IMG/VR virus record: IMGVR_UViG_3300008116_000055
Location: 1-64,000 of that record
Strand: one strand, 5' to 3'
Length of the DNA: 64,000 bases
DNA from: a virus
Position 1 is the first letter of the stretch; each line of letters starts with the position of its first letter. The notes below the pieces were generated by a model, which saw only the letters and a program-made list of their open reading frames with translations, had not been told where the DNA came from and made no database searches. The translations under genes were made by a program, and so were the position numbers. Positions 10,905 to 64,000 of this stretch are shown one piece after another.

Positions 10905-13760
10905 ATGGCAAATTCAAATAGAGTTTTTGTATCTCCGGGTGTATATACATCTGAAAAAGACTTAACATTCGTAGCACAAAGTGTTGGTGTGAGCACATTA
11001 GGTTTGGTGGGTGAAACCTTAAAAGGTCCCGCTTTTGAACCTGTATTAATAACTAATTTTGACGAATTCAAGTCATATTTTGGGGGAACAAGTCCGTTAA
11101 AAGACAACAATAACAATCCAAAATATGAATTACCTTATTTCGCAAAATCTTATTTAGAAGAATCTAACCAAATGTTTGTAACAAGAATATTAGGTTTAAC
11201 GGGTTATTTACCTGTCAAAACTTATGGTGTTAAAACAATTGGTGGGGTTACATTGGGGGCTCTTAGTGGAACAACCACAAGTTTAACAATGTCAGCATCG
11301 ACCACAACAATTACAGCAAGTACGATTTATAGTGAACTATCAGATAAAATATCTGTAGATGGAAATTATATTACAGAATATATTGTAGCAAACTTTAGTG
11401 GTAACACATCATCTAACCATGGACAATGGTTTGTGATGGGTGAAGTACCAACTTCAGGAACAAGTGGTCAAACATCATCACTTGAAGAAGTTTCTCCTTT
11501 AACAGGTTTGAATAACGCAAGTAATTACAACAATAAGGAATGGTTCAATAAACTTTGTAACACCACAGGTTCTGAAGTATATTCTTACTTATTTGTTTAT
11601 AACAGCGGTGCGAGTAGATTTGATGTGACTAAGTACACATACTATGGAACATTGAACACGGCGTATGATGGACAAGTGGTTTTAGCGTTCAGACCAAGAG
11701 GTTCTTACAATGGACAAACATTAAACTTGGAAACTACCGCAGATGTAAATTTTGTGGTTACAGGTTCAGGAATCACTACAAATCCATTAGCTGAATTTAC
11801 AGTTAATGTTACAGGTTCAACAAGTGGACCAAAATCATTCACTTGTAGTATGGACTCTTCGTCATCAAAATATGTAACAAAAGTTTTTGGTACCGATGTT
11901 TATGACAAATTAAAAAGTGATGTACCTGTGTATGTTTTTGAATCTTATCCAAATTACTTACAAAGAGCATATGAACAAGGTTTAATTAGAGGTTTAAGTT
12001 TAACAGAAGTTTTCGAACATGTTGGTAACGACTTTAAAACATCTTGGGATACCCCAATGACACCAACTGTTGTATCAGAGGTTAGAGGTGGTGAAGTTGA
12101 TGATTTATTTGATGTAATCACAGTATCAGATGGTGATTCTGCAAACTACGAAGTAAAAGTTTCAATTATTAATATTGATGTAAACACTGGTGACTTTGAC
12201 TTAATCGTTAGAGACTTTAATGATACAGACGATAATTTAGTTGTACTTGAAAAATTTGGTAGATGTAATATGAATCCAGATTTACCAGGATATGTTGCTA
12301 AAAAAGTTGGTACATCTGATGGTGAATATGAATTACGTTCAAGATACATTATGTTGTCAATGGCTGATAATCACCCAACCGACGCATATCCTGCAGGATT
12401 TAAAGGATTTACAAACAACACATCTTTTGGTTCAAGTACTTTAGGTTCGGTGATGTACAAGACTACATTCTATAACGCTGGTGATACTACATCTTATCAA
12501 GCCGATGGAACACCTGTTTTATCTTCAGGTGACAAAGTAAGAAGAACATACTTTGGTTTATCAAGTCCAACAAACGCAGTAACATACGATAGAGACTTGT
12601 TTAAATTCAAAGGAACATCAGCAGCTGGAACAACTAAGGGTTTCCACTTATCAACAAACGCATCTACAATCACAGGAACAACCTTCTTAACCACGTCGTA
12701 TGATTTAGAGGGTCAAACAGGTGGAGCGAATAACGTATTAACAAATATCAATTATCGTAAATTCACATTCGCAGCGGCTGGTGGATTTGACGGTTGGGAT
12801 ATCTACAGAAATGTGAGAACCTACGGTGATGGATACATCTTTGGTAAAAATACTTACACAAGTGGTAACACTAATAATGGTGGTGTATTTAGTACAGTAT
12901 CAGGAAACTCTGACTACTACGCTTACACTCAAGGTATTGATACCTTCGCAAACCCTGAAGCTGTTGATGTAAACATCTTCGCAACACCAGGTATCAACTT
13001 CTATGACCACAGTTCATTAACATCTTACGCAATTGATATGATTGAAGAAGATAGAGCGGATTCACTTTATGTGATTTCATCACCAAACTACGGTACAGCG
13101 GATGAAGTAATAGACGCTTTGGACGGCGTAGCAATTGATAGTAACTACTCAGCGGTTTACTGGCCTTGGATTCAAGTTAGAGACGCAGACAACGCTACAC
13201 AATTATACTTACCACCAACAGGTGAAGTATTGAGAAATATAGCATTAACAGATAACGTATCTTTCCCTTGGTTCGCGGTAGCGGGTTATTCAAGAGGTTT
13301 AGTAAACTCAATCAAAGCTTATAAGAAATTAACTTTGGATGAGAGAGATGACCTTTACAAAGCGAGAATTAACCCTATCGCAACATTTGCGGATACCGGT
13401 ACAATCATTTGGGGTAATAAAACACTTCAAGTACGTGAATCAGCTTTGGATAGAATTAACGTAAGAAGATTACTGTTAAGAGCAAGAAAATTAATTTCAG
13501 CAGTAGCGGTAAGATTGTTATTTGAACAAAACGACGAACAAGTTCGTAATGAGTTTTTGAGATTGGTTAACCCGATATTAGACGCAATTAAGAGAGAAAG
13601 AGGTTTGTATGAATTCCGTGTAACGGTTTCCAACGACCCTGAAGATATTGACGCTAATACTTTGAGAGGTAAAATTTACATTAAACCAACAAGAGCTCTT
13701 GAATTTATCGATGTTGAATTCATAATCACACCAACAGGAGCATCATTTGATAATATCTAA
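10905..13760 (+). CDS. 18: Contractile tail sheath protein (gp18-like)
   Basis: This is the tail sheath subunit that surrounds the tube and contracts on infection. The N-terminus VFVSPGVYTSEKDLTF is the typical sheath start. The C-terminal part carries the conserved core: FPWFAVAGYSRGLVNSIKAY, NVRRLLLRARKLISAVAVRL, then a final domain with DANTLRGKIYIKPTRALEF. At 951 residues it is much longer than T4 gp18 (659). The extra length lies in the middle (about 90-620), a Thr/Ser/Gly-rich beta region that is probably one or more surface-exposed inserted domains. A terminator follows directly, so the gene is probably transcribed alone from its own late element. Confidence 0.93.
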   Translation: MANSNRVFVSPGVYTSEKDLTFVAQSVGVSTLGLVGETLKGPAFEPVLITNFDEFKSYFGGTSPLKDNNNNPKYELPYFAKSYLEESNQMFVTRILGLTGYLPVKTYGVKTIGGVTLGALSGTTTSLTMSASTTTITASTIYSELSDKISVDGNYITEYIVANFSGNTSSNHGQWFVMGEVPTSGTSGQTSSLEEVSPLTGLNNASNYNNKEWFNKLCNTTGSEVYSYLFVYNSGASRFDVTKYTYYGTLNTAYDGQVVLAFRPRGSYNGQTLNLETTADVNFVVTGSGITTNPLAEFTVNVTGSTSGPKSFTCSMDSSSSKYVTKVFGTDVYDKLKSDVPVYVFESYPNYLQRAYEQGLIRGLSLTEVFEHVGNDFKTSWDTPMTPTVVSEVRGGEVDDLFDVITVSDGDSANYEVKVSIINIDVNTGDFDLIVRDFNDTDDNLVVLEKFGRCNMNPDLPGYVAKKVGTSDGEYELRSRYIMLSMADNHPTDAYPAGFKGFTNNTSFGSSTLGSVMYKTTFYNAGDTTSYQADGTPVLSSGDKVRRTYFGLSSPTNAVTYDRDLFKFKGTSAAGTTKGFHLSTNASTITGTTFLTTSYDLEGQTGGANNVLTNINYRKFTFAAAGGFDGWDIYRNVRTYGDGYIFGKNTYTSGNTNNGGVFSTVSGNSDYYAYTQGIDTFANPEAVDVNIFATPGINFYDHSSLTSYAIDMIEEDRADSLYVISSPNYGTADEVIDALDGVAIDSNYSAVYWPWIQVRDADNATQLYLPPTGEVLRNIALTDNVSFPWFAVAGYSRGLVNSIKAYKKLTLDERDDLYKARINPIATFADTGTIIWGNKTLQVRESALDRINVRRLLLRARKLISAVAVRLLFEQNDEQVRNEFLRLVNPILDAIKRERGLYEFRVTVSNDPEDIDANTLRGKIYIKPTRALEFIDVEFIITPTGASFDNI

Positions 13761-22329: not shown

Positions 22330-22655
22330 TGAGTAGACAGTATTTTGATAGATATCAGTTTTTTGTTGAAGATGGTAAATTTAGGATTGTACCAGGTATT
22401 GAAATCCCAATAAAACCTTCTGACAGATATATGTTTTATAAAAAAGGTAGAGATAGATTCGATAAGATATCTCAAGATTATTATGGTTCACCAGTATTTG
22501 GTTGGTTAATATTACAAGCAAATCCAACCGCTGGTAGTGTTGAATTTCAGATACCTGATAATTTTGTTATTAGAATACCTTTTCCTCTCACAACGTCTTT
22601 ACAAGATTATAAAAGAAGTGTAGAATTGTATAACCTATATTATGGCGAGCAATAA
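22329..22655 (+). CDS. 53: LysM-like baseplate wedge protein (gp53-like)
   Basis: The product has 108 residues: MSRQYFDRYQFFVED, then YKKGRDRFDKISQDYYGSPV, FGWLILQANP and IPDNFVIRIPFPL. The pattern (start, Asp-Tyr-Tyr-Gly, Leu-Ala/Asn-Pro, hydrophobic Ile-Pro end) is the LysM-like fold used by tail protein X and the gp53 family of wedge subunits. T4 gp53 is longer (196). It is coupled by a 1-nt overlap upstream and a 14-nt overlap downstream to two giant tail proteins, which places it in the hub or inner baseplate. The exact gp53 equivalence is inferred. Confidence 0.7.
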   Translation: MSRQYFDRYQFFVEDGKFRIVPGIEIPIKPSDRYMFYKKGRDRFDKISQDYYGSPVFGWLILQANPTAGSVEFQIPDNFVIRIPFPLTTSLQDYKRSVELYNLYYGEQ

Positions 22656-25600
22656 TGATTACCCAAATAATGAAAACATACTTGTAAAAGTTGACCAAAA
22701 CAATCTTATTTATGTTGACCCAAATAGTGTTGTTGATGCAAACGGAGAAGTTCAACCAAGAGGACATAAACAAGAAAACTTAGTCATGTATGTGAACTTG
22801 GAAGCTGATTTGATTCCAAGAACGACTCTTATTGCTGACGATAACGTAGGAAATACACTAACTCAAGTTGCAAAAGGTAATCTCAATTTTTTAAGAAACG
22901 CAAGTGGTGATGGGAACTTTGATGCCACATGGACTGACGCTTTTGTTCCCAAACCAATTCAGGGTCAAGAATCTACATATAAAGATGGATATGACGTAAC
23001 ATTCGGTGAGGACCAATTCAAAGACCCAACAGGACAATCTTTTGGTATTGATTCAATTAATATTGACGTAAAAGGTGCCAACTTTGTTCCACAAATCACT
23101 ATAAACTTTGTTGACGTAAGAGGTAAAACTCTTTTCGAATCTTCTGAAAACTCACCTTATCGAGCTTTCTTCCATTTACCGTGGCCAATTTTTTATTTAA
23201 CAGTTAAAGGTTACTACGGTAAAGCCATTCGTTATAGATTACATATGACCGATTTTAAATCGAGATTTAATGAATCTAATGGTAATTTTGAAATAACAAC
23301 AAAGTTTGTTGGTTCAACTTTTGCATGGTTAAACGATATCCCATTGTCTGCAATTATCAACTGCCCTTATATGTTTTTGGTCGAAGAAAAAGACAATACA
23401 AAATTTAATGAAAGTACAGGATTATATGAAAAAAGAGTAAAACAATCATCAAGAGGTTATACGATATTAAAATCGGTGTATAGACAATACGAACAAAAAG
23501 GTTTAATCCCAAAAGGTTTTCCTGTTCGTACCCTAAAAGAAATTGGTTACATCGCTGAAACTCTTGATAAAATACTTGAACAACAAATTTTTAGTAAAGT
23601 CAGTATGGATGTCTTTTCTGGTATAAAAGAAATGGACACCCTTCTCAATGATTTTGAAAATTCAATTAAGGCTTGGGGTAAACAATATCTATCACAAGAA
23701 TATACATCATTTACTAAAACTGCAACCAATAATGAAACAATTAGTGATTTATGGTTTTATTTGAACGCGAAAGATAAGACAGAGACAAAACATATATTAG
23801 GTAACGGAGCGGGTGCTCTTGAACTCCTTTTATCTAGTTTCAATGCCGCTATGGGTAAAACCAAACTTTTAACTCAAGAACTATTAAATCAAACAAGTGG
23901 AGACTTCAAAAGGATTTCAATTAGGAATGTTAAAAACGTAAGTTCATATTATAAAGTTCTTAATGATAAAAAAGTAGTTGTACATATTGATGGAATTTTT
24001 GAAGACATTTTTCAAATAAGAAAATCATTTGAGGAACAAAGAAAAAAAGTCGAAGATGATGTTGAATCAGAAATGAATAAGGTCATCAAAAGTAAAGAAT
24101 ATGGATTTGGATTCGAACCAACCGTAAGAAATATGTTTGCGGTTTTATTAGCTAATGCTGAGGTTTTTATTAGGTTAATGAAAGATGTTCATAACAAGGC
24201 TTTTGATGCTGCTAATAATAGAAAAAAGACTTTAACAAATTTATCAAAAGAATCAAAAGGTGAAAACATATATCCATGGCCTGAAGTAAAAAAACCCCAA
24301 GGTGGTGGTAAACAAAATGTAATTGCGTATCCCGGTGATGAAGAATTAGTTCACAAATTAAAATCTTATGACAAAACCCTTTGGCCTGAAATTGACTTTA
24401 TTGAAGAGTATATTAAAATTGTAACCAATAGGGTAGAAACAAACGTAAATGGGGAACCCACAAGAAATGATGTAAATTATGTTTTTGATTCAAATACTGA
24501 AAATCAAAAAATTGAAGACTTATCAGGTATTGACGTTATAAATGAATCTATACCATTTATTGATAAAAGTTACGCGGGATTTGTTTACGAATTGTACGAA
24601 AGAGCACTGTATTCAACATTGTTTGATTCTTTTAATGACCAAATGATTAGACAGTTGGCCAATGAAGAATTTAAAAATATTCAAGAATTAATAAAAGACG
24701 ATAACGATATTATTGAGTTAGCAAAAAAAATAACCAATAAAGACCAATTAATTGCTCCTGTTACAAAAACAGAATTAAGAGAAAACGGTGTTATTCAAAA
24801 AAATGAAGATGGGACACCTAAGACCACTACGGTTTATGATGGATATCTACCTGGATTATCACCATATGAAAGATTCAATTATTTTAAAGACCATCTACCA
24901 ACAACCAATTATATATCTTCAGTCATTGACGAACCATTTAAATTTGAAAAATATGACGAGACAGCAACTAACCCTACGGGTGATTTAAAAGAAGATGATT
25001 TAAATAAAATTTTAATTGATTACGAACCTGAAACATACAGGACAGACATATACCCCTTCAATTCAACAACATATTTGAATTATTTAGGTAAAACAAATTT
25101 CACAAGAGATAATTTTAAATTTAATGGCATTTTAAAAGTTAACAGTTCTCAAGGTTTTATATGTTCACCAATAGAATCTAAATCATGGGTTAAACCATCA
25201 GCAGACAGCACTGACTTTTTTAAAAATACGATTAATGTTACAGGAAACACAACCTCAATATTAAACACACCATATTTTCATAATCAATTATTTAATGATT
25301 TTAATAAATCAACTTTACGAGGTAAGTACGCTGGTTCATCGTATTTGTTATTAAACTCATTACCTTTCATTGATTTAGATGAACAAATAACATTTGGAGG
25401 TCAGTCAATATTAACATCTTCTTTATTTAGAGAAGTATCGTCTACACATTTTATACCATATCATTTAATGTTAAAATGGGGTTCAATTTATCATAGATAT
25501 AAAACACACTTAATAGATGGTTACGATATTTTGAATGGATGTGTAAATTCAAGCTATGTTACAAAACCATTAACAGGTAAAACCCTATTTGATAATAATG

Positions 25601-28600
25601 GTGCACTAATAACATACACATCAACAAACGCAAGTAGTAGTGGTACTACGATTAATGTACCAAGTACAATAGGACTACAAACAGGAATGACCGTTACGGT
25701 TATTGCTGGTACAGGACAAACAGCGCCGAATACGTACATTACAAATATTACAAGTACTACAGGATTTACAATTTCACAAACTCCACTTACAGGACTAACA
25801 GGTGCCACAGTATTTGCTGTTTATGATGAATATGTGACCTTTGATATAGTACCAAAAATTTCCACATCATCAGGTTCAACTTCAGGTGTTACATATACTG
25901 GTTACACTAATGCAGGTATTAGACCGTTCTATCAAACTGTGTACAGTCAAATAGTAAATGACTATGCAACTTATGATATAACTTTAGGTAATGTTTCATA
26001 TTCTTCCACAAGTACATCGGGTAAATTATTACATAGGGTTACACAAAAAAGCGGTATGAATTATTGGGACGTGGTTATGGATAATTCCAAATACATAACC
26101 TCAGACAAAAACTACACTTTATTACCATCTCTTGGGGGACATAAAAATAGTGACATATCCAATAGTAACACATTCACAGTAGCTGAGGAGTTGACATTTA
26201 AAACACTTTGGTACCTAAACGACACTCTTTCAACTAGTTTTAGTGGACAAACGTTCCCAAGTCCGTACGATTATTTTAGGACAACAGGTAACACATATTC
26301 AATATCAACTAATTACAAAAAGGCGTTAGATTTAATCGGTACATTTAGCCCTCAAATACTTGAGTATTTTGAAAGTTTCTTTCTTGATTTTGCTAGTGAA
26401 AAAATAAATGAAGAAATACCGTATAACATTTTTAGGAATATTAGTTATCCTAAATTCCAAGATATGTTAAAGAAATTATCCGTTGTTGAAAAGAAAGACG
26501 ATGATAGTAATGATATTGATTTATTAATTGGTAACACATTAAAAGAAAGACAAAAAAGAAACGCTGAATCTATCACTACAGATATATTAAGTGCTAACAA
26601 CTTAATAAAATTTACGTTAGCAAACCCAAAAGAAATTGATGCCAATTCTTTATATGGTTTGACAGCGGTTCAACCTTATAAGTCTTTGACAACTTATAAA
26701 CCACAACCTTTCAGTGCTTCAGATTTAACAACCCCAAATCTTAATTTTATTAAATTATATATTGGTGAAGATATTGATAGTTACTATGTTAATTTCTTTA
26801 GTTTATTGGACGTTAAATTAACTGAAGATAACATAAAAAAACATAGGCCGTTGGCTCAAATATATGGTGGATATCGAAAAGCGGGAGGAACCAACACCAA
26901 AGCCGCGTTTTTAACTTATTTACAAGATTCAATAATACTTAAAAATACAGGTGGAACAAATGTTCCAAAAGGGGCTGAAGCTAGACTTGCTTTGTATTTG
27001 AATACACTTTTACCATTATTAGGTAATTTAACGAGTAACGCCACGGGTAATCCTGCTGCTAGTATTGATATGTTTAGAGGTTACAATTCAACTCAAACAA
27101 AGTTAGAATTGTATAACACTTTCAAATCATTTAACGATAAATGGACCGCCGGTAATTCAATTGGTCAACGTTTGTTACTTGAGGAATTTTTATTCTTAGA
27201 CAAAGCCAATAGAGACATTGGTGATAAATTTTATTTAAACATAGATAAGTTTACACCTTTATTGGACCCAAACAACTCTAAACTTCCTTTGTACAACGCC
27301 ATTTCTATGATAATACAAGGTACTGGATTAGATATGAGAGCGTTACCTGCCTATATAAATTTTTATGGTAATAACTTGACAAATAAGAATAAAATAACAC
27401 CATCAAAAAAAGTGGCATCAACTTTATTTGGTACATTCTTAGAGGTTGATTATCAAGAGGCGACACCAAAAGTTATCATACAATTAGTTGGACAAACATC
27501 GAAAAGAATTGATATGTCCAATAGTAAGGCGTATAAGTTTGTTGACGATAGTTTTTATATTGGTGGACAAACTCCAAACCCATTATTAATAACATCATTA
27601 GAAGGTTTCTCACAAAACGATTTATCAAAATCTAATAGGGTAGTTGCGTTTGAGGTGAGTTTTGGTGACCAAAATCAAGGTATATTCAAAGGAGTTACAT
27701 TAGACCAAAGTACACTAAAAAATACATCAGAGTCTTTTCAAGTTTTAGAAAATCTATCAAGGTCGGCTTCAGGTGCTGGTGTTCATAATGTAGACACAAG
27801 TTTATTCGATTATTATAAACAAGCATCATATAAATGTGGTGTAACTGCCATGGGTAACGTTATGATTCAACCAACAATGTTCTTTTACTTAAAAAACATA
27901 CCTATGTTTAGGGGTTCATATTGGATTACTGAGGTTTCTCATCAAATCAAGGGTAATAACATCTCAACAAGTTTTTCAGGAACACGAATACCATATACTT
28001 CATTACCTGACCCTAAAGACTCATTTGTTGCAAGTTATCGAATTCTATTTGATAAAATTCAAGCAAAAGCTATTGCTAAAATCAAACAGAGAGCCGCTAA
28101 CGATACCGACACCGACCAAGAAGTTATATACCAAGGAATACCATATGTTACGGACAGACAAGGTAAAAATATACAGGGTGAAACGGTTATTCAAGAAGTT
28201 GGTATTAACAGATTTGGTGTACCATATAATGGATATAATGAAACTCGTCTAATACAAAAAGTTAGAAACGGTAATGAGGAATGGTTTAGAACTATTGTAT
28301 ATAAAATGGGTGGAGAAAAATACCCAATAGATGACGCACAAGGATTTAATCTCACAAACGGAATTACATGGTCTGACGTTAAGGATTCAAGTTATAAATT
28401 CTATAATGTGGATTTTCAATTGTCAAGAACCATTACTAATGATGTTATAAAAACTGCTAAAACAACATTTAAGAACCCTAAAAACAATACTCAATTAACA
28501 GTAAATCCTAATTACCAATTAGACAAAACTGTTGGTTCAATAGTGGTTGAAGGTCCAATTAGTAGAGGACCGAAGTCTACCGAGATTGGTATGGGTATGT

Positions 28601-28665
28601 CACCGAAACTTATGTCCGAATTAGGACTATACGATGGAGACGTTGTATACTTTAAAATGGATTAA
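22642..28665 (+). CDS. Giant baseplate hub-type protein
   Basis: The product has 2,007 residues. The N-terminal region has INIDVKGANFVPQITINFVD, then HLPWPIFYLTVKGYYG and a Phe/Tyr-rich block. This looks like a structural domain where a conserved phage virion family is placed in a long protein. The C-terminal 350 residues read like a tail hub: YKCGVTAMGNVMIQPTMFF, GSYWITEVSHQIKGNNIST, ending MSPKLMSELGLYDGDVVYF. Residues about 990-1055 are a Thr/Gly beta-rich insertion (GLQTGMTVTVIAGTGQ). The gene starts inside the end of the wedge gene and is followed by a TATTTATT element, so it ends its operon. I see no lysozyme or peptidase motif. Confidence 0.75.
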   Translation: MASNNDYPNNENILVKVDQNNLIYVDPNSVVDANGEVQPRGHKQENLVMYVNLEADLIPRTTLIADDNVGNTLTQVAKGNLNFLRNASGDGNFDATWTDAFVPKPIQGQESTYKDGYDVTFGEDQFKDPTGQSFGIDSINIDVKGANFVPQITINFVDVRGKTLFESSENSPYRAFFHLPWPIFYLTVKGYYGKAIRYRLHMTDFKSRFNESNGNFEITTKFVGSTFAWLNDIPLSAIINCPYMFLVEEKDNTKFNESTGLYEKRVKQSSRGYTILKSVYRQYEQKGLIPKGFPVRTLKEIGYIAETLDKILEQQIFSKVSMDVFSGIKEMDTLLNDFENSIKAWGKQYLSQEYTSFTKTATNNETISDLWFYLNAKDKTETKHILGNGAGALELLLSSFNAAMGKTKLLTQELLNQTSGDFKRISIRNVKNVSSYYKVLNDKKVVVHIDGIFEDIFQIRKSFEEQRKKVEDDVESEMNKVIKSKEYGFGFEPTVRNMFAVLLANAEVFIRLMKDVHNKAFDAANNRKKTLTNLSKESKGENIYPWPEVKKPQGGGKQNVIAYPGDEELVHKLKSYDKTLWPEIDFIEEYIKIVTNRVETNVNGEPTRNDVNYVFDSNTENQKIEDLSGIDVINESIPFIDKSYAGFVYELYERALYSTLFDSFNDQMIRQLANEEFKNIQELIKDDNDIIELAKKITNKDQLIAPVTKTELRENGVIQKNEDGTPKTTTVYDGYLPGLSPYERFNYFKDHLPTTNYISSVIDEPFKFEKYDETATNPTGDLKEDDLNKILIDYEPETYRTDIYPFNSTTYLNYLGKTNFTRDNFKFNGILKVNSSQGFICSPIESKSWVKPSADSTDFFKNTINVTGNTTSILNTPYFHNQLFNDFNKSTLRGKYAGSSYLLLNSLPFIDLDEQITFGGQSILTSSLFREVSSTHFIPYHLMLKWGSIYHRYKTHLIDGYDILNGCVNSSYVTKPLTGKTLFDNNGALITYTSTNASSSGTTINVPSTIGLQTGMTVTVIAGTGQTAPNTYITNITSTTGFTISQTPLTGLTGATVFAVYDEYVTFDIVPKISTSSGSTSGVTYTGYTNAGIRPFYQTVYSQIVNDYATYDITLGNVSYSSTSTSGKLLHRVTQKSGMNYWDVVMDNSKYITSDKNYTLLPSLGGHKNSDISNSNTFTVAEELTFKTLWYLNDTLSTSFSGQTFPSPYDYFRTTGNTYSISTNYKKALDLIGTFSPQILEYFESFFLDFASEKINEEIPYNIFRNISYPKFQDMLKKLSVVEKKDDDSNDIDLLIGNTLKERQKRNAESITTDILSANNLIKFTLANPKEIDANSLYGLTAVQPYKSLTTYKPQPFSASDLTTPNLNFIKLYIGEDIDSYYVNFFSLLDVKLTEDNIKKHRPLAQIYGGYRKAGGTNTKAAFLTYLQDSIILKNTGGTNVPKGAEARLALYLNTLLPLLGNLTSNATGNPAASIDMFRGYNSTQTKLELYNTFKSFNDKWTAGNSIGQRLLLEEFLFLDKANRDIGDKFYLNIDKFTPLLDPNNSKLPLYNAISMIIQGTGLDMRALPAYINFYGNNLTNKNKITPSKKVASTLFGTFLEVDYQEATPKVIIQLVGQTSKRIDMSNSKAYKFVDDSFYIGGQTPNPLLITSLEGFSQNDLSKSNRVVAFEVSFGDQNQGIFKGVTLDQSTLKNTSESFQVLENLSRSASGAGVHNVDTSLFDYYKQASYKCGVTAMGNVMIQPTMFFYLKNIPMFRGSYWITEVSHQIKGNNISTSFSGTRIPYTSLPDPKDSFVASYRILFDKIQAKAIAKIKQRAANDTDTDQEVIYQGIPYVTDRQGKNIQGETVIQEVGINRFGVPYNGYNETRLIQKVRNGNEEWFRTIVYKMGGEKYPIDDAQGFNLTNGITWSDVKDSSYKFYNVDFQLSRTITNDVIKTAKTTFKNPKNNTQLTVNPNYQLDKTVGSIVVEGPISRGPKSTEIGMGMSPKLMSELGLYDGDVVYFKMD

Positions 28666-38867: not shown

Positions 38868-40700
38868 ATGGCTAAAAAAATATCATACGCCGTCAGAGAC
38901 TTTGCGAGTTTAAGACAGGAACTAGTTAATCTCACAAGGGAATATTATCCCGATTTGATTAAGAATACAAATGACGCATCAATTTATTCTGTTTTATTGG
39001 ATTTAAATGCCGCTGTGACAGACAATTTACATTTTCACATTGATAGGGTTTGGCAAGAGACAATGCTAGATTTTGCACAACAAAGACAATCATTGTATCA
39101 TATTGCCAAAACATATGGTATGAGAATACCAGGTAATAGACCATCGGTTTCTTTGTGTGATTTTACAATACAAGTACCTGTTAGAGGAGATAAAGAAGAT
39201 GAGCGTTATTTGGGGACTATAAAATCAGGTGCACAAGTATCGGGTGGGGGACAAGTTTTTGAAACCATCGACGATATTGATTTCTCAAATCCCTTCAATA
39301 AAAGAGGTGAACCAAACAGATTAAAAATCCCAAATTTTGATGGTAATAATAGACTCATATCATACTCAATTGTAAAAAGAGAAGCTGTTGTAAATGGTGT
39401 AACAAGAATATATAGAAAAGTTATAACAGAAGTTGACCAAAAACCTTTCTTAAAAATATTCTTACCTGAACAAAACATATTAGGGGTGAGTGGAGTAATT
39501 CATAAAGAGGGAACAAACTTTGTAAATAATCCAACTAACTCTGAATTTTTAAGTTCTGAAAATAAATGGTACGAAGTAAAATCATTAATACAAGATAAAG
39601 TATTTGTGCCCGACCCAACATCGGCATCTGATAGTGATAATTTCATATCGGGAACATACGTTCCAGTTACAAATAAATTTATTACAGAATATACTCCCGA
39701 AAATTATTTTTCGGTAACATTTGGTTCTGGTAATGTTAATCCATTGGATAATTTGGACAACTATAACCAAGGTACTTTAAGAGTAAGTCTTGGAACGTAT
39801 TTGAATAACCTATCATTAGGTGCTTTACCGAAATCAAATACAACGTTATTCATAAAATATAGAATTGGAGGAGGTAAGGATAGTAATCTCGGTATTGATA
39901 TTATTACAAGTGTAGATAATGTTGAATTTTCTATTAATGGACCTAACTCATCAACGAACACTCAAGTACAAAATTCTTTAACCGTAACCAACGTAACACC
40001 AGCTGTTGGAGGTGCGGACCAACCCACAATTGAAGAAGTTAGAAACATGATAGCATATAACTTCTCTGCACAAAATAGGGCGGTAACTCTTAATGATTAT
40101 AAATCTTTAATTGAGACAATGCCATCAACATATGGGGCTCCCGCTAAGGTAAACGTGATGGAAGAAGACAATAAAATAAAAATTAAATTATTGTCATATG
40201 ATGAGAATGGTAATCTTATTGATACTGTTTCAAACACATTAAAAAACAACATTTTATCTTACTTAGCCGAGTACCGAATGGTTAATGACTTTTTAGAAGT
40301 TCAAAGCGGTGAAGTGGTTGATTTCACACTAGAGATTGACGTTGTTATTGATAAAAATGGTAACCAAACAGAGATTGTTAAAACTATTATCGAGGATACT
40401 GTTAGTTATTTTTCAATTGAAAAAAGAAAAATGGGTGACCCATTATTTGTTGGTGATTTATATAAAACAATAGGTGAAGTAAATGGAGTGGTAAACGCTG
40501 TCGATATAAGAGTTTTCAATAACGTAGGTGGAGAATATTCATCTTCTGAAGTGTTACAATCATATATTGACCCAACCACAAAAGAAATTGCTCAATCCGA
40601 TATGACTATCTATATGAAATCTAACCAAATATATCAAATAAGATTTCCTCAGAAAGATATAAAAGTTAGAGTAAAAACATTAGGAACGACTACATTCTAA
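38868..40700 (+). CDS. 6: Baseplate wedge protein gp6-like (baseplate J family)
   Basis: This is a core wedge protein. The product has 610 residues (T4 gp6 has 660). The N-terminal DFASLRQELVNLTREYYPD and the segment DLNAAVTDNLHFHIDRV are typical of gp6/baseplate J. The C-terminal half has TIEEVRNMIAYNFSAQNRAV, then LNDYKSLIETMPSTYG, the conserved J-family core, and ends with short beta repeats. It follows gp25 with one base between them. The next gene starts 52 nt later with its own TATTTATA element. Confidence 0.93.
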   Translation: MAKKISYAVRDFASLRQELVNLTREYYPDLIKNTNDASIYSVLLDLNAAVTDNLHFHIDRVWQETMLDFAQQRQSLYHIAKTYGMRIPGNRPSVSLCDFTIQVPVRGDKEDERYLGTIKSGAQVSGGGQVFETIDDIDFSNPFNKRGEPNRLKIPNFDGNNRLISYSIVKREAVVNGVTRIYRKVITEVDQKPFLKIFLPEQNILGVSGVIHKEGTNFVNNPTNSEFLSSENKWYEVKSLIQDKVFVPDPTSASDSDNFISGTYVPVTNKFITEYTPENYFSVTFGSGNVNPLDNLDNYNQGTLRVSLGTYLNNLSLGALPKSNTTLFIKYRIGGGKDSNLGIDIITSVDNVEFSINGPNSSTNTQVQNSLTVTNVTPAVGGADQPTIEEVRNMIAYNFSAQNRAVTLNDYKSLIETMPSTYGAPAKVNVMEEDNKIKIKLLSYDENGNLIDTVSNTLKNNILSYLAEYRMVNDFLEVQSGEVVDFTLEIDVVIDKNGNQTEIVKTIIEDTVSYFSIEKRKMGDPLFVGDLYKTIGEVNGVVNAVDIRVFNNVGGEYSSSEVLQSYIDPTTKEIAQSDMTIYMKSNQIYQIRFPQKDIKVRVKTLGTTTF

Positions 40701-53914: not shown

Positions 53915-56900
53915 ATGGCATTAATAAAAATAAACACAGGTAATTTTGATGGTGAAATTGGTGTTATCACATTTTATCCTTGTACTGGCGGTACCTTGAA
54001 TTTAGGTACTGTCGTGATGCCATATTATTACGACACAAACTACTACTTAGGTACTTACTCAGTTTATTTTCCGTCACTTGATAAAACTTGTGTGGCTGAG
54101 ATTCCTTGCCCTACACCTTCACCTACACCTTCACCAACACTTACACCATCATTAACACCAACACCAACAACCTTTACTTCAAATACCCCAACCCCAACAG
54201 TTACCAAAACCCCTACTGTTACACCTACGGTTACAAAAACACCTACTGTTACCCCAACCAATACTATCACTCCAACAAATACTCCTACGAATACCGTAAC
54301 TCCGACTAATACTCCAACAAACGAGCCTACAGTTACCCCAACTGAAACTCCTACAGTTACTCCAACTAACACAGTAACTCCAACCAATACCCCAACAAAT
54401 ACCCCAACGGTTACCCCAACTGAAACTCCTACAGTTACCCCAACTAACACAGTAACTCCAACCGAATCACCAGCCAACACACCTACTGTAACTCCTACGA
54501 ATACAGTTACACCAACCGAGACACCAACTGTTACTCCGACCGAAACTCCAACTGTAACCCCAACAAATACGGTAACCCCAACCAATACACCAACTGAAAC
54601 ACCTACCAACACCCCAACAAATACAGTTACCCCTACCGAAACTCCAACTGTAACTCCAACAAATACGGTAACCCCTACCGAAACACCTACCAATACACCA
54701 ACTCATACAGTAACCCCTACCGAAACACCAACCAATACCCCAACTAATACACCGACTGAAACACCCACTAACACCCCAACAAATACTGTTACCCCAACTA
54801 ATACACCAACCGAAACACCAACCGAAACACCAACCAATACCCCAACCAACACCGTAACTCCAACTGTTACCCCAACTGTTACCCCAACTGTAACTCCAAC
54901 CAATACTGTTACCCCAACTAATACACCAACCGAAACACCAACCGAAACACCAACCAATACTCCAACCAACACCGTAACCCTAACCGTTACCCCTACCGAA
55001 ACACCAACCAACACCCCAACTAATACTCCGACTAACACAGTAACACCAACACTGAGTCCAACCGTTACCCCTACCGAAACACCTACCAATACCCCAACCA
55101 ACACCATAACACCAACTAACACTCCGACTAATACCTCAACTGTAACTCCAACCAATACTGTAACTCCAACCAATACACCCACTGTAACACAAACTGAAAC
55201 ACCTACCCTAACACCAACAAATACTGCAACCGTTACACCAACTCAAACCCCAACCAATACTCCTACCAATACTGTTACACCAACGGTTACCCCAACTAAC
55301 ACTCCAACTGTAACTCCAACAAATACGGTAGCTCCAACTAATACACCTACAAATACACCAACCGAAACACCAACAAATACCCCCACCAACACACCAACAA
55401 ATACTCCCACAGAAACACCAACACTTACACCAACCAACACCGTAACCCCTACCAATACAGTCACACCAACCAATACTGTTACAGTGACTCCAACAGAAAC
55501 TGTGACACCAACTAATACACCTACAAACACCCCAACTAATACACCAACAAATACGGTTACACCTACGAATACTCCAACCAACACAGTAACTCCAACAAAT
55601 ACTCCAACTAACACTCCAACATTAAGTCCTACCAATACCGTAACTCCTACCAACACCCCAACAAACACACCGACGAATACAGTAACTCCAACTCAGACAC
55701 CTACAAATACTCCTACAAATACCGTTACACCAACCAATACCCCAACCAATACCCCAACCAACACCGTAACTCCAACAAACACTCCTACCAACACTCCTAC
55801 AAACACTCCCACAAATACCGTAACTCCAACCAACACCGTAACTCCGACTAATACACCTACAAACACACCAACGAATACTGTGACTCCTACATTGAGTCCT
55901 ACGGTAACACCAACTAACACCGTAACACCAACCAATACTCCAACCAATACACCTACCAATACTGTGACTCCTACATTGAGTCCTACGGTAACACCAACTA
56001 ACACCGTAACACCAACCAATACTCCAACTAACACGCCGACCAACACTCCTACTAACACTGTAACACCAACATTGAGTCCAACAGTGACTCCAACCAATAC
56101 AGTTACCCCCACAAACACCCCGACAAATACTGTAACTCCAACCAATACTGTAACTCCAACAAATACACCAAGTGTAACTGTGACGGTTTCACCAACACCA
56201 GCACCTTCTTGTGACATTGATTATACAATGTTACCCTCACCAACTCCAACGAGCACCCCAACACCCACCAATACTCCAACGGTAACACCAACCAACACTG
56301 TAACACCATCCGTTACATTAACCAATACTCCCACAAACACACCAACCAATACAGTAACTCCTACTAACACCCCAACTAATACACCAACAAAAACTGTTAC
56401 ACCAACTTTAACTCCAACAAATACTCCAACTAATACTGTAACACCAACCAATACACCAACAAACACTCCTACCAATACAGTTACTCCTACATTGAGTCCA
56501 ACAGTTACTCCTACCAATACTGTTACCCCAACCAATACTCCTACCAATACCCCAACCAATACAGTTACACCTACATTGACTCCAACAGCGACCCCAACCA
56601 ACACCGTAACCCCTACAAATACCCCAACATTAAGCCCCACCAATACTCCAACCAACACCGTAACCCCTACAAATACTGTAACACCAACGAATACCCCAAC
56701 CAACACTCCGACAAACACCCCAACAAACACTGTAACACCAACCAACACTCCAACAAACACTGTAACACCGACCAATACTCCAACAAATACCCCTACTAAT
56801 ACTGCTACTCCTACAAATACACCAACTAATACTCCTACCAATACGGTAACCCCTACAAATACACCAACTAACACTCCTACCAATACGGTATCCCCAACAC

Positions 56901-59900
56901 TGACACCTACTAACACCCCTACGAACACCGTAACACCAACAAACACACCAACTAACACACCAACTAATACTGTAACACCAACTAACACTCCTACCAACAC
57001 CCCAACCAACACAGTTACTCCTACCAATACGCCAACTAATACTCCTACCAATACGGTAACGCCAACATTGAGTCCAACAGTGACTCCAACCAATACCGTT
57101 ACACCAACTCAAACCCCTACAAATACCCCAACTAACACCGTAACACCAACCAATACACCTACGAATACCCCCACTAATACTCCAACAAATACCGTAACCC
57201 CAACAAACACGCCTACGAATACACCAACAGTAACCCCTACCAATACCGTAACCCCAACAAATACACCGACGGTAACTCCGACCAATACAGTCACACCAAC
57301 TAATACACCAACCAACACTCCTACCAATACGGCTACCAATACAGTTACTCCTACCAATACACCCACAAATACACCAACAAATACGGTTACACCAACTAAC
57401 ACTCCTACTAATACTCCAACAAATACCGTAACACCGACACTGACACCTACAAATACCCCGACAAACACTCCAACCAATACAGTTACTCCAACCAATACTG
57501 TAACTCCTACCAACACCCCTACCAACACCCCAACAAATACTCCAACAAATACAGTCACCCCAACTAATACTCCAACCAATACTGTCACCCCTACCAATAC
57601 TCCTACAAACACCCCCACCAATACTGTCACCCCTACCAATACTCCTACCAATACTCCTACAAATACAGTAACTCCAACTAACACCCCAACAAATACTCCA
57701 ACAAATACAGTCACCCCAACCAATACTCCTACCAATACGCCCACCAATACTGTCACCCCTACCAATACTCCTACCAATACTTCTACAAATACAGTAACTC
57801 CAACTAATACTCCTACCAATACGCCTACTAATACTGTAACTCCAACCAACACCCCAACTGTAACTCCTACCAATACTGTTACACCAACAAACACTCCTAC
57901 TAACACACCAACCAATACTGTTACACCAACAAACACTCCTACTAACACACCAACCAATACGGTAACTCCTACCAACACCCCAACTAACACACCAACCAAT
58001 ACGGTAACTCCTACCAACACCCCAACTAACACCCCAACAAATACTGTTACACCAACAAATACTCCCACCAATACCCCAACAAACACGGTGACTCCAACAA
58101 ACACTCCTACTAACACCCCAACAAATACAGTAACACCAACATTGAGTCCTACAGTAACTCCTACGAACACAGTAACTCCTACAAATACTCCCACAAACAC
58201 TCCGACCAACACCGTTACACCAACAAATACCCCAACCAATACCCCGACAAATACAGTAACCCCAACTAACACACCTACCAACACTCCAACTAATACAGTA
58301 ACTCCCACATTAAGTCCAACTGTGACTCCTACTAATACTGTGACTCCTACAAACACTCCTACCAACACACCAACAAATACAGTTACACCTACATTGAGTC
58401 CAACAGTGACTCCAACCAGCACCGTAACCCCAACTAATACGCCAACATTAAGTCCTACCAATACTCCAACCAACACTGTTACTCCTACAAATACCGTTAC
58501 ACCAACCAATACACCTACCAATACCCCAACAAACACCGTAACCCCAACACTAACCCCAACTAACACTCCAACCAATACTCCTACAAATACGGTATCTCCA
58601 ACCAACACCGTAACCCCAACAAATACACCAACTAACACTCCAACCAATACTCCCACCAACACTGTTACTCCAACCAACACCCCGACCAACACTCCGACTA
58701 ATACAGTAACTCCTACCAATACCCCAACAAATACCCCAACAAATACAGTTACACCTACATTGAGTCCAACGGTGACTCCTACTAATACTGTAACTCCTAC
58801 CAACACTCCGACCAACACACCAACCAATACTGTTACACCTACATTGAGTCCAACGGTGACTCCTACTAATACTGTTACACCCACTAACACGCCAACTAAC
58901 ACTCCTACTAACACTGTAACACCAACTCAGACTCCCACGAACACGCCTACAAATACAGTAACACCTACTAACACACCTACTAATACACCAACAAATACGG
59001 TAACACCAACCAACACCCCTACGAACACGCCGACTAACACCCCAACCAATACAGTCACACCAACTAATACCGTAACTCCAACAAATACGCCAACCAATAC
59101 TCCTACCAATACGCCAACCAATACCGTAACACCAACTCAGACACCGACAAATACCCCAACAAAAACTGTTACACCAACATTGAGTCCGACTGTGACACCA
59201 ACAAATACTGTTACTCCAACCAATACCCCCACCAATACTCCAACTAACACAGTAACCCCAACCAATACTCCAACTGTAACACCTACGAATACTGTTACAC
59301 CTACAAATACACCGACGAATACACCAACCAATACGGTAACTCCAACCAACACCCCAACCAATACCCCAACTAGTACTGTTACACCAACATTAAGCCCGAC
59401 ACTAACACCAACCAATACAGTAACTCCAACATTGAGTCCGACTGTAACTCCAACAAGAACGGTTACACCTACTTTAACACCAACCAATACACCGACAAAT
59501 ACGGTAACCCCTACAAATACTCCCACCAACACCCCAACAAACACTCCAACCAATACAGTCACCCCAACAAACACCGTAACACCAACCAACACCCCCACAA
59601 ACACTCCAACCAATACTCCAACAAACACCGTAACACCAACCAACACACCAACCAAGACTGTAACTCCAACCAATACCCCAACCAATACTCCAACTAATAC
59701 AGTAACCCCAACTAATACACCAACCAATACTCCAACGAACACCGTAACTCCAACCAACACCCCAACCAACACTGTAACTCCAACAAATACACCTACAGTT
59801 ACCCCGACTAACACAGTAACACCTACACTGAGTCCGACTGTAACCCCTACGAATACAGTTACACCAACTCAGACACCTACAAATACTCCAACTAACACCG

Positions 59901-62900
59901 TAACTCCTACCAACACACCAACTAACACACCAACTAACACTGTTACACCCACAAATACACCAACCAATACAGTTACTCCTACCAATACACCTACTAACAC
60001 TCCAACTAACACAGTAACCCCTACCAATACCCCTACGAACACTCCTACTAATACAGTAACTCCTACAAACACCGTAACACCAACCAACACACCAACCAAT
60101 ACTCCAACCAACACTGTCACCCCTACATTGAGTCCTACGGTAACTCCTACGAACACAGTTACCCCTACTAACACACCGACTAAGACCGTGACTCCCACAT
60201 TGAGTCCGACTGTGACTCCTACAAATACTGTTACACCAACTCAAACCCCTACGAATACACCAACTAATACAGTTACACCAACTAATACACCTACAAACAC
60301 CCCAACAAATACAGTTACACCTACAAATACCCCAACTAACACTCCAACCAATACAGTAACCCCTACACTGAGTCCAACCGTAACACCAACTAATACTGTC
60401 ACACCCACGAATACACCAACCAATACCCCTACGAATACTGTAACCCCTACCAACACCCCTACTAATACTCCTACAAATACGGTTACACCAACTAACACTC
60501 CAACAAGAACGGTTACACCTACTTTAACACCAACCAATACACCGACAAATACGGTAACCCCTACAAATACTCCCACCAATACCCCAACAAACACGGTGAC
60601 TCCTACATTAACACCAACTGTAACTCCTACAAATACCGTAACACCAACCAATACTCCTACAAATACTCCTACTAACACAGTAACACCTACCAATACCCCT
60701 ACAAACACACCAACAAACACTGTAACTCCAACTAACACCCCTACTAATACTCCGACGAATACGGTAACTCCAACCAATACCCCAACAAACACACCTACCA
60801 ACACCGTAACACCTACAAATACTCCTACTAAAACTGTGACTCCCACATTGAGTCCAACAGTTACACCTACCAACACCGTAACACCTACAAATACTCCCAC
60901 AAATACCCCTACTAACACAGTAACACCAACAAATACACCAACCAACACTCCAACTAATACCGTTACCCCAACTAACACACCTACAAATACACCAACAAAT
61001 ACTGTGACTCCTACATTGAGTCCAACAGTTACACCTACCAACACCGTAACACCTACAAATACCCCTACCAACACCCCAACAAATACAGTAACACCTACAT
61101 TGAGTCCGACTGTGACTCCAACTAACACCGTTACGCCAACTAACACACCTACCAACACTCCAACTAACACCGTAACCCCTACCAGCACCCCCACAAGAAC
61201 CGTTACACCTACATTAACTCCAACCAATACCCCTACTAATACCGTAACCCCAACAAATACCCCAACCAATACCCCTACTAATACCGTAACCCCAACAAAT
61301 ACCCCAACAAACACTCCAACTAATACCGTAACCCCAACAAATACCCCAACAAACACTCCAACTAATACCGTAACCCCTACCAACACCCCCACAAGAACCG
61401 TTACACCTACATTAACTCCAACCAACACACCAACTAATACTGTAACCCCAACCAACACTCCTACAAACACTCCAACGAATACAGTTACACCAACCAATAC
61501 ACCAACTAACACCCCAACCAACACTGTAACTCCAACATTGAGCCCTACAGTGACTCCCACTAATACAGTTACACCAACTAACACACCAACCAATACCCCA
61601 ACCAACACCGTAACTCCAACAAACACCCCTACTAAAACTGTAACTCCCACATTGAGCCCTACGGTAACCCCAACAAACACTGTTACTCCAACCAACACCC
61701 CAACTAATACTCCAACTAATACTGTTACTCCAACCAACACCCCAACCAACACCCCAACTAATACTGTTACACCGACCAACACACCAACGAATACTATAAC
61801 TCCTACTAATACTCCTACCAAAACTGTTACACCAACTCTAACCCCAACGAATACACCGACCAATACTCCTACAAACACAGTAACCCCAACCAATACCGTA
61901 ACACCAACTAACACTCCAACCAACACTGTAACTCCAACTAATACACCAACCAACACCCCAACTAATACTCCGACAAACACTGTTACGCCAACCAATACAC
62001 CAACAAAAACTGTCACACCAACTTTAACCCCAACCAACACCGTAACACCAACCAATACCCCGACTAATACACCTACAAATACTGTTACTCCAACTAATAC
62101 ACCTACAAACACTCCAACCAACACCGTAACCCCAACCAATACACCAACTAATACGGTGACTCCCACATTGAGTCCTACGGTAACTCCTACAAATACTGTA
62201 ACCCCTACTAATACTCCTACCAAAACTGTTACACCAACTCTAACCCCAACGAATACTCCTACCAATACTGTAACCCCTACCAATACTCCTACCAATACTG
62301 TAACCCCTACCAATACTCCTACCAATACTCCAACAAATACTGTTACCCCAACTCAGACACCTACTAACACTCCAACGAATACAGTCACACCAACCAACAC
62401 ACCAACTAATACTGTAACTCCTACATTGAGTCCTACGGTAACTCCGACCAATACGGTAACCCCAACAAACACACCAACTAACACACCAACTAATACTGTA
62501 ACGCCAACTAATACACCAACAAAAACTGTTACACCAACTTTAACTCCAACCAATACCCCAACTAATACTGTAACACCTACCAATACACCAACAAACACTG
62601 TTACGCCAACTTTAACTCCAACCAATACCCCGACCAATACCCCAACAAATACCGTTACTCCAACCAACACAGTTACCCCGACCAATACCCCAACTAAGAC
62701 AGTCACCCCAACTCAGACTCCCACCAATACTCCAACCAATACCCCCACAAACACTGTAACTCCAACAAACACTGTTACGCCAACAAATACTCCAACTAAT
62801 ACGGTAACACCGACTAACACTGTAACGCCGACCAATACCGTAACCCCCACTAACACTGTAACTCCAACGAATACAGTTACACCGACCAATACTCCAACAA

Positions 62901-64000
62901 GAACTGTTACGCCTACCTTAACCCCTACAAATACTCCAACAAATACGGTAACTCCGACCAACACACCAACTAACACACCAACTAACACAGTTACCCCGAC
63001 TAACACCCCAACCAATACGGTAACCCCTACTAACACACCTACTAATACACCAACCAAGACTGTTACTCCTACATTAACTCCTACCGTTACTCCAACGAAT
63101 ACAGTTACACCGACCAATACCCCGACTAATACTAATACCCCTACTAATACACCTACAAACACTCCTACTAACACAGTAACCCCAACCAATACACCAACAA
63201 AAACTGTCACACCAACTTTAACCCCAACAAATACACCGACCAACACACCAACTAATACAGTGACTCCAACCAATACTGTTACCCCAACAAACACTCCAAC
63301 CAAGACTGTTACTCCTACATTAACACCAACCAACACTCCGACCAATACGGTAACCCCTACAAATACCCCAACTAACACCCCAACAAACACTGTTACGCCA
63401 ACTAATACACCAACCAAGACTGTTACTCCTACATTAACTCCAACCAATACCCCTACTAATACCGTAACCCCAACAAATACCCCAACAAACACTCCAACCA
63501 ATACTGTAACACCAACGAATACTGTTACCCCAACATTGAGTCCTACTAATACCCCAACTAATACTGTAACACCCACCAACACACCCACCAACACACCAAC
63601 AAATACTGTTACACCAACCAATACACCAACAAAAACCGTAACACCTACATTAACACCAACAAACACTCCTACAAACACCCCAACAAATACCGTTACTCCA
63701 ACCAACACCGTAACCCCAACTAACACACCAACTAATACGGTGACTCCCACCAATACCGTTACACCTACAAACACTGTTACACCTACTAATACTGTTACAC
63801 CTACTAATACTGTAACACCAACTAATACACCAACCAAGACTGTAACACCTACATTAACTCCAACCAATACTCCAACAAACACCGTAACACCAACTCAGAC
63901 ACCGACTAATACTCCTACAAATACCGTAACTCCTACCAATACACCAACAAAAACTGTCACACCAACTTTAACTCCAACAAATACCCCAACCAATACTGTT
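53915..64000 (+). CDS. Giant Thr-alternating repeat protein (3' truncated by window)
   Basis: The frame from ATG 53915 is open to the last base of the window, at least 3,362 codons. Spot checks at many positions show the same phase throughout. The N-terminal 64 residues are unique ([20 protein letters not shown], with Cys near 23 and 59). Then almost every second residue is Thr, with P, N, V, L, E, Q, K or R between: [16 protein letters not shown]-type units of 4 residues. Codons for the same residue vary freely. One break near 56210 reads CDIDYTML. I infer a very long extended, possibly O-glycosylated fibre or stalk. It follows the tail-fibre genes and resembles the shorter Thr/Pro linker at 8.9 kb. 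The true end and any C-terminal domain are outside the window. Confidence 0.9.
59447..59529 (+). repeat. 83-bp exact direct repeat, copy 1
   Basis: Begins ACTCCAACAAGAACGGTTAC and is identical to 60497-60579, 1,050 bp downstream (350 codons, in frame). In this codon-scrambled region such a long exact match indicates a fairly recent in-frame duplication or gene conversion. Confidence 0.75.
60497..60579 (+). repeat. 83-bp exact direct repeat, copy 2
   Basis: Second copy of the 59447-59529 segment, encoding [16 protein letters not shown] and the following units. The sequences diverge again immediately after CCCACCA. Confidence 0.75.

Follow-up and report, generated by a model that had tools for sequence, protein, structure and literature searches.

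Does the right-hand end of this stretch of viral DNA encode a single protein of several thousand residues, and what would such a protein do for a phage? The window, that is, the whole stretch analysed here (64,000 bases), is the first part of a virus record of 232,626 bases, referred to below as the parent contig, and coordinates above 64000 follow the numbering of that record, which is continuous with that of the window. A preliminary description, made from the window, had pointed to a plus-strand frame of extreme length with Thr at nearly every second position, placed it in a tail-fibre operon, and called the product possibly glycosylated.

Reading frame and composition of the giant gene

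The frame that starts at ATG 53915 was said never to close in the window, and the frame check bore this out: all 3,362 codons from 53915 to 64000 (plus strand) are free of stops. They form the 5' part of a giant gene for a chain of alternating X and Thr or Ser residues (X-[ST]), which runs on to 70080 in the parent contig. Extension beyond 64 kb, as had been proposed, yielded three Cys-rich C-terminal blocks (68098-70077, plus strand) and the stop at 70080, but the frame breaks before it gets there. In the parent contig it stops at 66718 after 4,267 residues, the tail of which looks frame-shifted; from the break at about 66650 (66.65 kb) a second frame with the same repeat is open to the stop at 70080. 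An exact 35-bp tandem duplication (66620-66654/66655-66689) lies at the break. Six IMG/VR contigs (G004, G005, G006, G009, G012, and G013) carry the gene as a single intact ORF of 5,472 codons for amino acids, byte-identical over 16,419 nt, and in three further contigs the chain gene is broken, each at different repeat positions. Because six contigs are unbroken and three are broken elsewhere, we regard the 66.65-kb break as an assembly error; a programmed frameshift at this point is ruled out on the same evidence. The flanks of the six intact contigs are likewise identical, so these contigs represent the same phage population and are maybe not fully independent samples; some of them may derive from repeated assembly of a single sample. 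The longest exact repeat within the array is 83 bp, and short-read assembly across it is therefore plausible. The claim of extreme length thus holds, with a product of 5,472 aa and a predicted mass of 564 kDa. The chain repeat accounts for the breaks that many assemblies of this group show in the tail operon, and for the wrong strand that gene callers may pick.

Parity and codon-position tests place the X-Thr chain at 54176-64000 (plus strand), from where it continues to about 68.1 kb and appears again between the C-terminal domains. Between residues 89 and 4800, one parity comprises 2,356 slots, of which 2,287 hold Thr and 53 Ser, and Thr at the other parity is zero. The X slots are filled by Pro (991/2,356, about 42%), Asn (745), Val (418), and also Leu; Pro almost never occupies adjacent X slots, and a common unit of the chain has a period of seven X slots, or 14 residues. 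Within the codons of the Thr slots, base entropy rises from 0.10 bits at the first position and 0.15 bits at the second to 1.81 bits at the third, and all four Thr codons are used. Since this entropy is high only at codon position 3, the alternation is kept at the protein level and reflects neither chance nor DNA-level repeat drift. The forward protein is under selection, and the long reverse ORFs, which the preliminary description had suspected of masking it, are its shadow. As genes, the reverse-strand ORFs are ruled out by the codon-position test and by the stops that interrupt their frames. Over its full 5,472 residues the protein contains 45% Thr and 20% Pro, with the Thr/Ser- and Pro-rich tandem repeats of mucin-like (PTS) glycoproteins; it has 42 Cys, mostly in the C-terminal blocks and the head, which corresponds to the Cys-rich flanks of such glycoproteins, and only 21 Asp.

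Terminal domains, orthologues, and position in the tail region

The chain is preceded by an N-terminal head module of 65 residues (53915-54109, plus strand; consensus ending in GTY) that recurs in other chain proteins. A search for this head in other phages had been suggested at the outset, and it located relatives at 25 loci, or 31 when the alignment was used as query. Codon differences between orthologous heads amount to 9 to 25 synonymous versus 3 to 17 non-synonymous changes. Four orthologues, L044 (2,737 aa), L045 (2,940 aa), L047 (4,989 aa), and L046 (at least 4,688 aa, broken), keep the head, a chain, and the Cys-rich C-terminal domains, and in all of them the chain is rewritten: PTNT/NTVT in the phage of the window, PSVT/PTSS in L045, PTIT/STSV in L044, and PTNT/LTPT in L047. 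The X-[Ser/Thr] alternation is kept in all sampled orthologues with chain sequence. The originally described X-Thr rule therefore stands for the chain of the window, but the wider family alternates X with Ser or Thr and not with Thr alone. The heads of L033 and L034 are 98% identical in DNA and yet their chain types differ, from which it follows that chains turn over fast while the spacing of hydroxyls is held. Inside the rewritten chain, a punctuating module of 18 residues (56198-56251, plus strand) is conserved in five orthologues; a form of it that ends in (M/R)(L/I)PSPTPT is nearly invariant in the window, L033, L044, L046, and L047, where it lies within residues 612-1255. This module is possibly a disulphide staple or a processing site.

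Neither the head nor the C-terminal domain found a match in INPHARED or in PHROG. The C-terminal domain gave no convincing Pfam match (one weak hit, E 0.044), the head gave no significant PDB match by sequence, and the head and C-terminal searches in PHROG, Pfam, and PDB revealed no homology of the giant protein to a known fibre family. The AlphaFold2 model of the head was poor (pLDDT 52); that of the C-terminal domain was better defined (pLDDT 76) and beta-rich, and a fold search with it returned nothing in PDB below E 0.3. The earlier remark that no described phage protein resembles this one is thus upheld in INPHARED for the head and C-terminal domain, although other phages do contain similar, much shorter X-[ST] stretches.

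A gp6-like baseplate wedge gene with a J-like domain (38868-40700, plus strand) lies upstream of the giant gene, and a tail sheath gene (PHROG 23) is found at 10905-13760 (plus strand). Several hundred contigs carry a homologue of the gp6-like gene. In Flavobacterium phage immuto (MW353175), which has a gp6 homologue (26%), genes follow one another in the same order between the baseplate wedge and primase/exonuclease, and those annotated as tail fiber and tail spike lie in that interval; immuto differs in having neither GT60 nor an X-[ST] chain. The giant gene consequently sits where a tail fibre or whisker gene is expected, within the baseplate/tail-fibre interval, and the proposed tail-fibre operon position is supported by the wedge gene and by the annotation of the syntenic interval in immuto. 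Three further X-[ST]-chain genes (70125-72689, 72756-73601, and 73981-76902 in the parent contig) share this interval. A second chain protein, of 844 aa with an 82-residue X-[ST] stretch, is encoded just upstream of the sheath gene (7819-10353, plus strand); its gene contains a 153-bp repeat. The plus strand of the parent record showed no further chain of at least 30 residues. A 2,007-aa ORF at 22642-28665 of the window had no Pfam match at E 0.01.

The phage lineage resembles the moraphages (PMC12619734), a recently described lineage of freshwater jumbo phages of 200-307 kb with gp6/gp25/T4-like genes, predicted Bacteroidota hosts, and four core glycosyltransferase groups. Membership in this lineage is uncertain, and one frequent marker is missing: lysine-tRNA ligase is present in 24 of the 28 tabulated moraphage genomes (PMC12619734), and PF00152 had no match in G000, G009, and G021. 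The word 'threonine' is absent from the main text of the moraphage paper (PMC12619734).

Glycosyltransferase genes and their co-occurrence with the chain

The parent contig holds two glycan clusters and five GT2 matches over the cut-off. Cluster one (99.3-111.4 kb) encodes several GT2-type proteins, FkbM methyltransferases, a sugar epimerase, and a UDP-GlcNAc 2-epimerase. Cluster two, from 210.8 kb, begins with tandem genes that match the PF11397 profile (210764-212020 and 212031-213296), a family that we take to be CAZy GT60, followed by nucleotidyl- and methyltransferases. The best PF11397 match had E 3.1e-72 and 244 bits against a cut-off of 21, the second copy also exceeded the cut-off, and both matched PHROG 24687 'glycosyltransferase' over their full length. 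No PF11397 match was found in 14 control cellular genomes. Both copies contain an LDSH motif, and LDSH or IDSH is present in all GT60 homologues inspected; going by GT27/GT60 enzymes generally, we assume this to be the DxH metal-binding motif. In this lineage the pair lies about 157 kb from the giant chain gene. The same cluster of glycan and methyltransferase genes includes a RuBisCO-family protein (218356-219585 in the parent contig, L055:5357-6586; PF00016 E 1e-31), for which the best NCBIfam model was type III at 153 bits, far below its cut-off; a RuBisCO-like enzyme is unusual in a phage.

Other routes to glycosylation of the chain were considered. General O-glycosylation in Bacteroidota uses a D-S/T motif, and with only the few Asp noted above in the whole protein this route seems unlikely. 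Enzymes of the GT60 family start mucin-type O-glycosylation in protists such as T. cruzi and Dictyostelium (PMC8724618), and one characterised subgroup acts on a hydroxyproline of Skp1 (PMC6939170), so that family membership does not set acceptor specificity. A Skp1-like pathway with a prolyl hydroxylase was rejected, as a search of the phage's own genome did not find the 2OG-oxygenase PF13640.

The association between GT60 and the chain was assessed across phages, with the chain defined by an alternation pattern of about 58 residues. Twenty large contigs were picked solely for GT60, and 15 other contigs solely for an X-Thr stretch. Among the GT60-selected contigs, 17/20 matched the pattern. 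The WSNNNN pattern also picks up collagen-like Gly repeats (P-SSM2, G044, and G060), all of which were removed, and 15/20 remained after G044 and G060 were dropped; five of these 15 (G042, G043, G050, G051, and G058) were also checked by direct reading. The other 5/20 have no chain of at least 58 residues, two of them carrying a shorter one (G049, 52 aa; G054, 38 aa). G044 (L532) and G060 (L548) are GT60-positive with no X-[ST] chain and with Ser/Thr-rich, collagen-like Gly-X-Y repeats (GSSGTSG...), which could be an alternative acceptor. In the reciprocal selection, GT60 was found in 10/15 chain-selected contigs, many of which are fragments. An X-[ST] chain was present in none of 11 GT60-negative reference phages, including GAP32, presumably a Rak2-like relative of XacN1. 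INPHARED yielded a GT60 homologue in three records only, XacN1, CM1, and RAS14, and the two GT60 isolates tested, XacN1 and RAS14, each contain X-[ST] stretches (in RAS14 judged from matched DNA alone). Fisher's test on 17/22 versus 0/11 gave P ~2e-5, uncorrected for kinship, and phylogeny could account for part of the association, since the reference set is small (11 phages) and consists mostly of unrelated phages. A control set drawn with the baseplate gene of LR756508 consisted of three short contigs only and was left out.

Gene order adds to this association. In six of the ten GT60-bearing, chain-selected contigs (L505-L508, L513, and L514) a chain gene is followed directly by GT60, on the same strand and at a distance of 52-165 bp; in the remaining four the gene upstream of GT60 encodes a different protein that looks tail-like from its context. 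L506, L512, and L514 also carry heads homologous to that of the window. The chain protein directly upstream of GT60 in L506 (3352-16230, contig G074) is itself a giant, of 4,292 aa with 89 Cys. Two observations weigh against such a link: around the closest relatives of the phage's GT60, a chain lies within 5 kb at only 6 of 80 loci, and in the lineage of the window the pair is 157 kb distant from the chain gene.

The cultured Xanthomonas jumbo phage XacN1 offers the nearest comparison. Its GT60-type transferase, ORF334, is 47.8% identical to that of our phage, and X-[ST] chains are found in ORF174, ORF369, ORF370, and ORF384. The XacN1 virion contains at least two glycoproteins, and its authors proposed two phage glycosyltransferases, ORF328 and ORF334, as the enzymes responsible (PMC5852040). 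XacN1 differs in its host group and in its chain stretches, which are at most about 80 residues long; the authors saw no tail fibres and, in the text drawn on here, do not mention chains (PMC5852040). ORF369 and ORF370 lie close to the sheath gene, as does the 7819-10353 protein here, and ORF384 (AP018399, 272200-280671), of 2,823 aa and annotated as a glycerophosphoryl diester phosphodiesterase, contains several X-[ST] stretches.

A proposed glycosylated fibre and its rivals

From the co-occurrence of chain and GT60, these phages would seem to make giant fibres with a sugar coat. The best explanation of the locus, which we hold with moderate confidence, is a giant virion fibre whose mucin-like chain is densely O-glycosylated by phage enzymes. 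From the genes we infer the virion location of the protein, the attachment and identity of the sugar, and the conformation and function of the chain. The product would be a tail-fibre or whisker protein in the virion of a freshwater jumbo myophage, with a small, beta-rich head that probably anchors the fibre and Cys-rich domains near the C-terminus that probably touch the cell. Between them would extend a chain of about 4,700 residues, every second one Thr (Ser in some relatives). In the host cytoplasm, the GT60-type polypeptide glycosyltransferases of the phage would add O-linked HexNAc to many of the chain hydroxyls, and other phage glycosyltransferases and methyltransferases would lengthen and decorate this sugar. 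The predicted outcome is a mucin-like bristle, stiff and hydrated, which at full extension (4,700 x 0.31 nm) would measure up to about 1.5 micrometres, would keep the binding domains at a great distance from the baseplate, and may also protect the virion as a shield. The initial 'possibly glycosylated' was a guess; it gains genomic evidence from two GT60-type transferases, two glycan clusters, and the association and adjacency of GT60 and chain genes, but the sugar itself is a prediction from sequence.

The probabilities that we attach to this explanation and to its rivals overlap and do not sum to one. The chain could instead be an unmodified, disordered tether, a flexible spacer with Thr/Ser for solubility in a phage that uses its glycosyltransferases for another purpose. 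Bacterial and phage proteins commonly have short TP-rich stretches as linkers, and lengths from 2,737 to 5,472 aa fit a spacer without a ruler function. A soluble spacer needs no exact X-[ST] parity over thousands of residues, however, and here the parity persists across lineages in which the rest is rewritten; with the association and adjacency of GT60 and chain genes also against it, we consider the tether doubtful, though the strongest of the rivals. The TP-rich linkers of secreted bacterial proteins (Anaerolineae, Ruminiclostridium) share a TPTNTPTPT-like composition, but their longest X-[Thr] total is at least about 1,000 aa in the loci examined, versus about 4,700 here. An ordered, unglycosylated fibre, such as a beta solenoid, a cross-beta structure, or a Thr ladder with Thr on one side, would suit both a strict alternation that presumably turns every Thr side chain of an extended strand to the same face and the 14-residue internal period. 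Pro disfavours beta strands, however, and fills some 42% of the X slots (991/2,356), and in the relatives Ser and Thr are freely intermixed and the X residues differ; we judge this structure improbable.

The glycosyltransferases could also act on DNA, host surface polymers, or other virion proteins instead of the fibre. If the glycan clusters targeted DNA or the host envelope, the link to the chain would reflect shared ancestry within one group of aquatic jumbo phages. Phage glycosyltransferases often modify DNA (PMC12619734), and a quarter of the GT60-selected contigs (5/20) are without a chain of at least 58 residues. Against this, the characterised PF11397/GT60 members act on proteins (PMC8724618, PMC6939170), GT60 adjoins chain genes in six contigs, and the co-occurrence extends to XacN1 and RAS14, on Xanthomonas and Stenotrophomonas, which leaves such a target unlikely, somewhat less so than an ordered fibre. 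That the array arose as a repeat-expansion artefact or as selfish DNA and has no functional product, or that the reverse-strand ORFs are the genes, is hardly credible: reverse ORFs do reach 694 aa and several assemblies break in the chain, but the codon-position entropy contradicts both versions, stops interrupt the reverse frames, six intact ORFs are identical, and the ends and the mid-chain module are conserved.

The proposed densely glycosylated fibre invites comparison with protist and other eukaryotic mucins, whose O-glycans are initiated by GT60/GT27 enzymes (PMC8724618). The likeness lies in a very long, Thr/Ser/Pro-rich tandem-repeat chain, in Cys-rich terminal domains, and in a genome with a gene from the enzyme family by which mucin glycans are initiated. 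Unlike mucins, the phage protein would be made in the bacterial cytoplasm with no secretion pathway; its chain has a strict two-residue alternation, and there is no homology. Virion glycosylation and TP-rich linkers are already known; no description was found in the literature searched or in INPHARED for a chain of this scale, for the strict X-[ST] rule, or for the paired GT60, and a literature search for Thr-rich phage tail proteins returned nothing relevant.

If the explanation is true, it predicts a substrate for PHROG 24687, a widespread family of phage glycosyltransferases filed in PHROGs only under auxiliary genes, and the prediction is directly testable in cultured phage XacN1, for which virion proteomics has been deposited. 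It would also mean that environmental phages of unknown surface chemistry possess a bacterial-virus mucin in the form of a giant low-complexity virion protein, together with the enzymes that glycosylate it. In our estimation the chances are evenly balanced that phages evolved their own mucin-type O-glycosylation, with a dedicated cytoplasmic GT60 that is encoded beside or with its giant X-[ST] fibre substrate and modifies Thr/Ser residues of that fibre by the thousand. Many aquatic jumbo phages, as well as phages that infect Xanthomonas and Stenotrophomonas, would then possess a counterpart of mucins that arose by convergence in viruses of prokaryotes.
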